DNA of 64,000 bases from Haloarcula halobia. Its GTDB lineage: Archaea > Halobacteriota > Halobacteria > Halobacteriales > Haloarculaceae. Numbering within the stretch: position 1 is the first letter of the stretch; the number at the start of each line of letters is the position of its first letter. The notes under the pieces were generated by a model. The model made no database searches. It was not told where the DNA came from and saw nothing but the letters and a program-made list of their open reading frames with translations. The position numbers and the translations under genes are program-made. The stretch covers positions 620,001 to 684,000 of the forward strand of contig NZ_CP119787.1 of the NCBI RefSeq assembly GCF_029338255.1, written 5' to 3'. This document shows, in pieces, positions 28,845-31,032 of the stretch.

Positions 28845-29192
28845 GTGACCGGGGTCGACGAGTGGACGGCGCTGCTCGCCGAGGCGGGGGAACTCACCCC
28901 CGAGGCAGTGTCACGTCTCGTCGACGTCCACGGCGACCGGGGCCAGCGCGCCATCGAGGCCGTCGGCGAGGGCCGGGTGAAAGGCTACCGGGACTTCACC
29001 GTCGTCGTCGGCCACGACGACGAGTACATCGTCGAGGACGGCGGCTGTACCTGTGCCGACAGCGAGTACAACTTGGACGCCGACGACCCCGACCAGCTGT
29101 GCTGGCACGCCATCGCCGTCCGCGTCGCCGAGGCCATCGACGCCGTCGACGAACACGACATGTGGTACTCCGACGTCAGGGATTTCCTATAG
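28845..29192 (+). CDS. SWIM zinc-finger protein
   Basis: The 115-residue product carries a SWIM-type zinc-finger, CxCx(n)CxH: C-T-C in GGCTCADSEY near residue 68 and C-W-H in DQLCWHAIAV near residue 87. SWIM domains bind DNA or proteins; in archaea some accompany recombination proteins. Here no such partner is next to it. The N-terminal 60 residues are helical and end in the strand pair VKGYRDFTVVVGHDDEYIVE, a short substrate-like module that often precedes SWIM. The start is GTG at 28845, supported by the TATA-like element 23-30 bp upstream. Confidence 0.85.
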   Translation: MTGVDEWTALLAEAGELTPEAVSRLVDVHGDRGQRAIEAVGEGRVKGYRDFTVVVGHDDEYIVEDGGCTCADSEYNLDADDPDQLCWHAIAVRVAEAIDAVDEHDMWYSDVRDFL

Positions 29193-29194
29193 TA

Positions 29195-29395
29195 CCTTTT
29201 TGCTTCGGGGGGTGTCCTCGCTCGCTGCGCTCGCTGCGGGCACCCCCGCTCGCAAAAATCTACGCTAAAAAGGGCCGGAATCGCCGCTCGCGGCGATTCC
29301 GGTGAAACCGCGCCGTCGGCGCGGTATGCTCGCACTTCGGGCCTGCCCTCCCCCGCCGGCGCGCCACAGAGGGCGCGCCCGGCCACCGCACCGCT
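29195..29395 (-). repeat. Left arm of the inverted repeat around hisH
   Basis: This about 200-bp arm pairs, in inverted orientation, with 30174-30430. Conserved blocks are the outer hairpin around GGGGGTGTCCTCGCTCGCTG and GGGCACCCCCG (29206-29249), and the inner block containing ACCGCGCCG, GCGCGGTATGCTCG, GGGCCTGCCCTC and CCGCCGGCGCGCC (29302-29385). A hairpin GAATCGCCGCTCGCGGCGATTC (29278-29299, stem 9 bp) sits between the blocks and differs from the right arm. It lies in the gap between the SWIM gene and hisH, which are convergent, and holds no gene. Confidence 0.85.
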
Positions 29396-29422
29396 ACCGC
29401 ACCGCGACCGCACCGCTACCGC
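29385..29422. repeat. 11-bp tandem repeat over the hisH stop codon
   Basis: Units ACCGCACCGCT (29385-29395), ACCGCACCGCG (29396-29406) and ACCGCACCGCT (29407-29417) are followed by ACCGC. The repeat runs into the last codons of hisH, and the TAG stop (29418-29416) lies within it. Confidence 0.8.
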
Positions 29423-30117
29423 TGGTCGACACAGTAGTCGACGAAGTTCCGGAGGATACGTAGGCCCGTCTCGCCGGACTTCTCGGGGTGGAACTGGGTC
29501 CCGAAGACGTTGCCGGCCTCGTTGGCGACGATCGAGGCGAAGTCGACGTCGTAGTCGGTGGTGGCGACGACCGCCTGCTCGTCGTCGGGGACGGCGTAGT
29601 ACGAGTGGACGAAGTAGGCGTACTGGCCGTCGACGGAACCGCCGGTTCCGTCTGCCCGTGGGGTCTTCGACCCCACGCTGTCGACGCCCTCGACGAGCGG
29701 GTGGTCGCGCTGGACGTCGAGTTCGTTCCAGCCCATGTGGGGGACCGTCTGGTCGCGCGAGAAGCGGACGTTCTTCCCGGGCACGAGGTCTAGGCCCTCG
29801 GCGTCGCCCTGGCCGGCGTGGTCGGCCTCCTCGCTCGTGGTCAGGAGCATCTGCATCCCGAGACAGATACCGAAGAGCGGCGTGCCCGCCTCGGCCTGTT
29901 CGACCAGCGTCTCGCGGAACGGGCCGGCGTTCTCCATCCCCTCGGAGAAGGCCCCGACGCCGGGGAGGACGATGCCGTCGGCCCGCGCGAACTCCGCGGG
30001 GTCCTCGGAGAGGGTCACCTCGGCGCCGGCCCGCTCCAGGCCGCGCGTGACGCTCCGGAGGTTCCCGAGCCCGTAGTCGACGACGACCACCTCCGCGGCG
30101 GTCTGTCTGGCGTTCAT
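29416..30117 (-). CDS. hisH: Imidazole glycerol phosphate synthase subunit HisH
   Basis: The 233-residue product is the glutaminase subunit that supplies ammonia to HisF in histidine biosynthesis. The triad is visible: Cys in FGICLGMQML near residue 90, His and Glu in GTQFHPEKSG near residue 215. The N-terminal VVVVDYGLGNLRSV and GIVLPGVGAFSEGM are typical. It has a short insertion, GSKTPRADGTGGSVDG near residue 165, compared with usual bacterial HisH. The ATG at 30117 is the family-like start; longer open frame upstream is repeat DNA. No other his gene is near, as is common in haloarchaea where his genes are scattered. The gene is bounded on both sides by inverted repeat arms. Confidence 0.94.
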   Translation of the reverse strand: MNARQTAAEVVVVDYGLGNLRSVTRGLERAGAEVTLSEDPAEFARADGIVLPGVGAFSEGMENAGPFRETLVEQAEAGTPLFGICLGMQMLLTTSEEADHAGQGDAEGLDLVPGKNVRFSRDQTVPHMGWNELDVQRDHPLVEGVDSVGSKTPRADGTGGSVDGQYAYFVHSYYAVPDDEQAVVATTDYDVDFASIVANEAGNVFGTQFHPEKSGETGLRILRNFVDYCVDQR

Positions 30118-30173
30118 GGGAGGGGATACGAAAACGGAGGCTAAGTGGCTTCCCCTTCGGACAGATTTCGCGG

Positions 30174-30430
30174 GTAGTGGCGGCGCGGTGGCCGGGCGCG
30201 CGTTCCGTCGCGCGCCGGCGGGGAAGGGCAGGCCCGCACCACGAGCATACCGCGCCGGAGGCGCGGTTTCACCGGACGCGAGCAGCGAGGTCACTCCGTG
30301 ACCTCGTAAGCGAACGGCGCGAAGCGCCGTGAGCGAGTGAGCGTCCGGCAGTTTTTCCCCACGTTTTTGCAAGCGGGGGTGCCCGCAGCGAGCGAAGCGA
30401 GCGAGGACACCCCCCGCAGTAAAAAGTGGT
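30174..30430 (+). repeat. Right arm of the inverted repeat around hisH
   Basis: This arm is the reverse-complement counterpart of 29195-29395. Shared blocks are GGTGGCCGGGCGCGC to ACCGCGCC and GCGCGGTTTCACCGG (about 30188-30275), then CGTTTTTGCAAGCGGGGGTG to GGACACCCCCC (30363-30415) followed by AGTAAAAAGTGG. Between them the right arm has its own hairpins: GAGGTCACTCCGTGACCTC (30287-30305) and GGCGCGAAGCGCC (30316-30328). The 327-bp gap between the hisH start and the end of the uracil-DNA glycosylase gene holds this arm and no gene. Confidence 0.85.
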
Positions 30431-30444
30431 CGTCAAAAAGTGGT

Positions 30445-31032
30445 CTAGTAGTCCCCGAGCCGTCGCTGCCCGCTCTCGTCGTCGGTGAAATCGGCGGCTT
30501 TCGCGAGCGTGTCGGCGAAGGTGTCCTTCTGGCCGGGGTCGTACAGCGTGGCTGCCGGGTGGACACAGACGAGGACGCGCCGCGGCGACCCGGCGATGGC
30601 GACGTCGTGGACGGTGCCGGCTTCGCCGGTCACCGCGACGTCCCGGTCCAGCAGGTGCTGGGCGGGTACCTTCCCCAGGGTGACGACGACCTCGGGGTCG
30701 ACGCGGTCGATCTCGGTCTCCAGGTACTCGCGGCAGTTCGCGAGTTCGTCCGTGTGGGGGTCGCGGTTGTCCGGCGGGCGACAGCGCACGCAGTTAGTGA
30801 TGCGAACGTCGCCACGGTCCAGGCCCACGTCCCGGAGCGTCTCGTCGAGTACGTCGCCGCTGCGCCCGACGAACGGTTCGCCCTGCTCGTCCTCGTTCGC
30901 GCCGGGGGCCTCGCCGACGAACAGGAGGTCCGCGTCCGCGGGCCCGACGCCGTTGACGATCCGCGAGCGCGACTCGCACAGTGCCGCGCAGCGCTCACAG
31001 TCGACGACGTCGAGGCCGTCCATCCGAGTCAT
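30445..31032 (-). CDS. udg: Type 4 uracil-DNA glycosylase
   Basis: The 195-residue product is a family 4 (UDGa) uracil-DNA glycosylase with a [4Fe-4S] cluster, which removes uracil arising from cytosine deamination. Motif 1 is FVGEAPGANEDEQGEPFVG (about residues 38-56). Cluster cysteines lie in CERC (12-15) and in NCVRCRPP and ANCREY further on. Motif 3 is CVHPAATLYDP near residue 158. The ATG at 31032 has GTTTGATAC about 22-30 bp upstream. It acts with PCNA in base-excision repair. Confidence 0.92.
   Translation of the reverse strand: MTRMDGLDVVDCERCAALCESRSRIVNGVGPADADLLFVGEAPGANEDEQGEPFVGRSGDVLDETLRDVGLDRGDVRITNCVRCRPPDNRDPHTDELANCREYLETEIDRVDPEVVVTLGKVPAQHLLDRDVAVTGEAGTVHDVAIAGSPRRVLVCVHPAATLYDPGQKDTFADTLAKAADFTDDESGQRRLGDY

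Follow-up and report, generated by a model that had tools for sequence, protein, structure and literature searches.

Inverted copies of a dispersed hairpin element bracket hisH in Haloarcula halobia

Main finding

In Haloarcula halobia, the hisH gene lies between two inverted arms which are ordinary members of a real, well-supported family of dispersed elements, named E here. The window, i.e., the whole 64-kb stretch of DNA that was analysed, corresponds to C1:620001-684000 of the 3.48-Mb host genome (G000). Element E is apparently undescribed and occurs in most of the salt-loving archaea (Halobacteria) sampled. Its modular anatomy, its dispersal, the covariation of its stems, its placement where genes end, and a congener in which the hisH-Z segment is fixed in the inverted orientation are described below. 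The best explanation, which we consider probable, is that the arms are copies of a class-wide element situated behind genes, with a putative role as bidirectional terminator, and that exchange between copies moves or inverts the segments between them. The interest of the locus lies in the E family and its gene-end rule, together with orientation-dependent tail duplications and tRNA trailers; hisH itself provides a concrete, testable case of an E-bounded inversion.

The inverted arms around hisH

The initial annotation placed hisH between two inverted copies of a repeat of roughly 200 bp, and this arrangement is confirmed. A repeat search of the window returned two inverted ungapped pairs: (i) 29196-29258 and 30364-30426 (63 nt, 94% identity); and (ii) 29298-29397 and 30177-30276 (100 nt, 87% identity). 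The inverted arms, of about 220-260 bp, are located one on each side of hisH. In a BLASTN comparison of arm A with the window, arm B was the sole match besides arm A itself (29196-29407 against 30168-30426 reversed), with 69% identity over the gapped length and an E value of 1.6e-32. The hairpins between the shared blocks differ, as had been claimed: there is a single, perfect 28-nt hairpin in arm A (29275-29302) and a longer, compound one in arm B (30272-30349). Arm A is found between the stop codon of a small plus-strand gene (29190-29192) and the hisH stop, and arm B between the stop codon of the uracil-DNA glycosylase (UDG) gene (30445-30447, minus strand) and the region upstream of hisH. 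Two traits were absent from the initial annotation: (i) each arm starts immediately after a stop codon, the T5 of arm A beginning 5 nt past the SWIM-like stop and arm B directly past the UDG stop; and (ii) each arm includes a fourth hairpin block. The features of the locus, in window coordinates, are the following:

28845..29192, plus strand: small gene (ORF) with a CxC...CxH motif, from which the name SWIM-like is read; no Pfam match; its stop abuts arm A
29193..29387, plus strand: arm A, long-form E, placed behind the SWIM-like gene (in sense) and behind hisH (in antisense) (BLASTN with arm B; covariance model R2 match 649187-649332, 116.5 bits)
29197..29258, plus strand: arm A hairpin 1, closed by T5 (29197-29201) and A5 (29254-29258) (sequence; DNA fold z -4.7 over 29193-29335; covarying helices)
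29275..29302, plus strand: arm A hairpin 2; its minus strand reads as a stem then CCCTTTTTAG, terminator-like for hisH (terminator scan; fold)
29307..29325, plus strand: arm A hairpin 3 (ACCGCGCC-GTC-GGCGCGGT), then ATGC (sequence; fold)
29340..29387, plus strand: arm A block 4 (GGCCTGCCCTCCCCCG...hairpin...CGGCCACC), which extends E to its long form (recurs after E in sense-anchored copies of other species)
29416..30117, minus strand: hisH, the segment between the arms (Pfam GATase 1e-20; present in 32/32 congeners)
30118..30165, minus strand: hisH upstream region, on the hisH side of the arms, with core CCGAAGGGGAAG...CACTTAGCC (by-eye comparison of upstream regions; G026 sequence)
30177..30434, minus strand: arm B, long-form E, sense behind UDG, 5' end at 30434, block 4 at about 30177-30241 (BLASTN; R2 match 650242-650434, 125.5 bits)
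30249..30267, minus strand: arm B hairpin 3 (sequence)
30272..30349, minus strand: arm B hairpin 2, compound, two nested hairpins (sequence)
30364..30425, minus strand: arm B hairpin 1, with T5 (30425-30421) and A5 (30368-30364) (sequence; alignment)
30430..30444, minus strand: the E 5' end (ACCACTTTTTGACG) present once more, immediately after the UDG stop (sequence)
30445..31032, minus strand: UDG gene (Pfam UDG 3e-33); its stop abuts arm B

The arms look inverted because both are sense copies behind genes that face each other, namely the SWIM-like gene (plus strand) and UDG (minus strand). The insertion of two foldback elements on either side of hisH, also put forward at first, is unsupported, since E has about 40 copies, most of which occur singly, and each arm is one such copy. 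Target-site duplications were looked for at both arms and no duplication flanking arm A or arm B was found; it is other, antisense copies of E that carry long duplications of gene tails. Between arm A and the hisH stop (29386-29418), three copies of an 11-bp unit, CGCACCGCTAC, are found, and a different tandem unit occupies this place in G010 (L210).

Anatomy, copy number and spread of element E

A genome-wide search with each arm, proposed in the initial annotation to look for a separate dispersed element, gave 11 and 20 matches, many of them partial, which led to the E family. When the arms are aligned with their genomic matches, a single modular element is obtained, with three or four hairpins and T5...A5 boxes. 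Its layout is CCAC-TTTTT-xC-(TGCGTCGGG)-hairpin 1-(CCACTCCTTGC)-AAAAA-cGTGG-GGAAAAA-(TGC)-hairpin 2-GTGAAACC-hairpin 3-GGTATGC. The early description of the arms as intergenic elements with GCGAGCGA-type hairpin cores was right. A long form, to which many sense-anchored copies belong (arms A and B included), has an extra GCCTGCCCTTCCCCGG-hairpin 4-CCGGCCACC after E. In other species, this block 4 is found behind E in many of the sense-anchored copies, and it was missing from every antisense-anchored copy inspected.

Copies were searched for with covariance model R2, a first model (R1) having been dropped due to its poor structure. R2 yielded 44 matches in the host genome, four of which are duplicates because contig C1 has a terminal redundancy of about 69.6 kb; in consequence, there are about 40 unique copies. 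The two ends concerned, C1:1-69600 and C1:3285050-3354654, are 99-99.8% alike over some 69.6 kb (three spots compared), which implies that the chromosome was not circularised and that the E copies located there were counted twice. Regarding specificity, the best chance match scored 13 bits over 484 kb of hisH loci, mostly of non-halophiles, and confident copies score about 35-140 bits.

Element E was found in 31 of 32 Haloarcula genomes (genus as delimited by GTDB), a record of Haloarcula mannanilytica (L086) also having a copy. Across the Halobacteria sampled, it occurs in 125 of 155 genomes and 50 of 59 genera. A search of Rfam, in both gathering and E-value modes, returned nothing relevant to the arms, and no description of E was found in our literature search, which covered mostly open-access papers.

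Placement at gene 3' ends

The position of E was surveyed in 117 distinct copies of the genus and 49 copies from other genera, taking as anchor the upstream stop codon on the same strand or the end of a tRNA. The distance from this 3' end to T5 is 0-9 nt in 64/117 genus copies, the other 10-nt bins holding 0-3 copies each, and in 21/49 copies of other genera. Among the genes that own a copy are those for tRNA-Ser, -Pro, -Gly, -Arg, -Phe, -Ala and -Gln. In a second class of copies, E is antisense and the gene to its right has its stop codon at the 3' end of E. Some 30-40% of the copies are without anchor by ORF calls, which tandem arrays and truncation explain in part. The RNase P RNA gene departs from the 3'-end rule: there, the 5' end of E faces the promoter side (L204:785-1154, L205:2393-2946).

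As for the two arms, copies similar to arm A are present behind the SWIM-like gene in most relatives, and a copy similar to arm B is found behind UDG also in G015, G017 and G002 and is absent from most others. Between UDG and hisH, where the host and its relatives have E, G025, G021 and G016 (L199, L207, L218) have another repeat family (GGTGGGACTGAAAGGGGC...CAGCCAGAAAGcCCC).

Stem covariation

In 115 distinct copies of the genus, 96.5% of the stem cells are paired, and the stems accumulate 292 double changes versus 62 (sd 6) in shuffled alignments; slid structures reach at most 59% pairing. Because the model structure guided these alignments, the counts are biased towards it, and shuffles and slides served as control. 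The same behaviour was observed in 49 copies from other genera. Leaving aside two fixed G-T columns, G-U pairs make up about 1% of the stem cells. Their near absence from variable pairs indicates that both arms of each stem change together. This pattern suggests either a constraint at the DNA level or copying between the arms of a stem, and the scarcity of G-U pairs fits a DNA-level constraint at least as well as an RNA structure.

Putative role as terminator and recombination site

Element E is most likely a bidirectional terminator-like element and a recombination site. The proposed mechanism has three components: (i) in sense, the TTTTT located 0-9 nt past the stop codon, together with the hairpin, would end the transcript of the gene that owns the copy; (ii) in antisense, the GC-rich hairpin 2 followed by TTTTT-n7-TTTTT would end the transcript of the opposite strand; and (iii) homologous exchange between copies would move and invert the segments between them. 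The T tract found directly behind genes, at the frequencies given above, is what a terminator would present. In Haloferax, intergenic 3' ends map to T stretches ending at C, and termination in vivo can be brought about by hairpins (PMC7237163). A terminator scan detected one terminator-like site for hisH versus 0.7 expected by chance, a result which alone is no better than chance. A terminator function of E, if real, would account for the ends of many haloarchaeal transcripts and for the breaks in gene order at such sites.

Gene-tail duplications and the origin of E

The tail of the adjacent gene is duplicated on the far side of the element (X'-E-X) at 20 of the 24 antisense-anchored copies and at 0 of the 83 anchored in sense only. 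Fourteen further tail duplications belong to copies unanchored by ORF calls, many of them within tandem arrays. The duplicated tails are mostly 20-120 nt long; the 5' end of E is regular and some antisense copies are cut on their 3' side. At hisH, G016 carries an antisense E and an 89-nt copy of the hisH tail between hisH and SDR; the hisH-SDR gap of G022, G008 and G025 measures 49-85 nt and has no E. Several species share similar boundaries of the copied argF tail, and this copy is therefore old in the genus. There, X and X' are 93-100% alike within the best-conserved species and 80-87% alike (median) between species. Concerted evolution keeps both alike and, therefore, their identity is not proof of a recent event.

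Repeated units were also observed at several loci: (i) argF E-plus-tail arrays, of one to three units, occur in about 10 Haloarcula genomes and evolve in concert with the gene (L072:1540-1864; L332-L361); (ii) behind tRNA-Arg(ccg), identical 26-nt copies of the tRNA 3' tail alternate with complete and partial E (L039:1380-1730); and (iii) the end of an etfA-like gene, as read from the peptide, is present in three identical 186-bp E-plus-tail units (L083:1400-2070, i.e., G000 C1 ~3341400-3342070). Many neighbours of E have 332-336 aa; the idea that they form one gene family was rejected, as these ORFs were cut by the 1-kb flank.

For the origin of the tails, our preference, a tentative one, goes to template switching during replication at strong hairpins, followed by gene conversion; tails and hairpin turnover would then need no dedicated enzyme. 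Stem arms that change together with hardly any G-U intermediates, tandem E-X arrays, and argF tails with similar boundaries across species and concerted evolution are all consistent with this account. Nevertheless, microhomology was looked for at the tail-duplication junctions and no consistent rule emerged, and template switching alone fails to explain the position of E exactly at stop codons and tRNA ends.

Its rival is transposition by an unspecified mechanism. According to this reading, which we find doubtful, E is mobile and targets gene 3' ends for insertion, the gene being spared because its tail is duplicated; the two arms at hisH would be old insertions, and anchoring would reflect target choice and not terminator function. 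The X'-E-X tails of the antisense-anchored copies, the regular 5' end with occasional 3' cuts, and the E plus hisH tail of G016 next to three E-less relatives point in this direction, and, if E is able to move, it would spare its target gene in a novel manner. But sense-anchored copies have no tail duplication at all, and outside tandem arrays and redundant contig ends the genome has no near-identical donor copies. Nor was a mobilizing partner found: the reverse transcriptase (PF00078) on which non-LTR, target-primed insertion would depend is absent from 32/32 genomes, with positive controls; no E occurs at IS605 or TnpB loci; no RAYT (Y1 HUH) is flanked by E, the one Y1 transposase of the genome lying beside TnpB (an IS605 pair) with no E near. 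Besides, E is absent from phage records, without exact-pattern matches in IMG/VR, and rare on plasmids (three weak matches). MITEs would share terminal inverted repeats with a transposon and leave a short fixed target duplication; no such duplication was found, the tails of E varying from about 20 to 120 nt and accompanying antisense copies or arrays only, and transposon ends were compared non-exhaustively.

Two more specific origins were considered. Reverse-transcribed insertion, which could fit variable tails and a regular 5' end, is unlikely, at least by an enzyme of known type, given that there is no RVT_1 in the genus. Derivation from IS605 or PATEs was rejected, since an unfiltered model search of seven Y1/TnpB loci gave at most 5.2 bits. 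Rather unlikely, too, is the broader proposal that E represents a new kind of class-wide haloarchaeal mobile element which inserts at 3' ends without a transposase or reverse transcriptase of its own, copies 20-120 nt of gene end to its far side when landing in antisense, and acts as terminator and recombination hub as well.

Inversion of the hisH-Z segment

In most relatives, the usual order is gB-EndoV-UDG-hisH-(SDR/Z), followed by SWIM in convergent orientation (UDG>hisH>...SWIM<). G026 has the order SWIM>hisH>Z>UDG<, that is, the usual one with the hisH-Z segment turned round, as read from one 7.1-kb contig of a 58%-complete draft. The inverted orientation between the repeats thus exists in nature. 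Visual inspection revealed, at each junction of G026, a long-form E that is degenerate (below the R2 threshold) and includes block 4, and these two copies have the variant GGCGGTGGCACCGGC in place of GTGAAACCG; the common variant suggests an exchange between them. As the two copies have only short identical stretches in common, an assembly error through the repeat is unlikely. The hisH upstream region travelled with hisH, its core being seen in many congeners, the inverted G026 included; the arms lie outside both and, in consequence, inversion leaves gene and upstream region intact. In G009 and G002, hisH is again located between two E copies, with RNase P RNA or tRNA-Ser as neighbours, and RNase P lies on opposite sides of hisH in these two genomes. 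The rearrangements of G026, G009 and G002 imply that E marks breakpoints repeatedly.

The initial annotation held that recombination between the arms would invert hisH. Exchange would indeed have that effect, and G026 offers an inverted hisH-Z, but a hisH-specific invertible switch is unsupported; the data support an event on the evolutionary scale, i.e., a fixed difference between species. A site-specific recombinase acting on hisH as a dedicated, phase-variable segment that can be inverted, as the inverted arms and G026 might evoke, is highly improbable, for the arms are only 69% alike over their gapped length, are common dispersed copies and lack one member in most relatives, and no expression switch is expected when hisH keeps its own upstream region either way.

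Comparison with known systems

The REP/BIME and ERIC sequences of enterobacteria are short, palindromic, non-coding intergenic repeats, often placed behind genes and present in tens to hundreds of copies. Element E too is palindromic and intergenic, with many dispersed copies (about 40) and a structure that is kept, as covariation reveals, while its sequence varies. It differs from them in its greater length, in its three to four hairpins plus T5/A5 boxes, and in spanning an archaeal class; furthermore, it abuts stop codons within a few nt, its antisense copies have duplicated tails, and no RAYT-type partner was found. Integron attC sites are likewise structured, sequence-variable and located directly behind stop codons, as is E, but no attC consensus ends were noticed in E, its host genes are housekeeping genes and tRNAs, and we know of no integrase partner.

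Among haloarchaeal repeats, the PATEs, SMRs and MITEs of Haloquadratum walsbyi are free of transposase and contain heterogeneous palindromes, two properties shared by E, and at some positions such repeats switch orientation between strains (PMC3119063). PATEs derive from IS605 ends and SMRs are without target duplications (PMC3119063), whereas E has no IS605 link and has long gene-tail duplications in one orientation. Finally, the T-stretch and hairpin terminators of haloarchaea (PMC7237163) resemble E in their T tract close behind the gene and in a hairpin able to terminate in vivo; those are simple signals, whereas E is a conserved, repeated module whose T tracts are readable from both sides.
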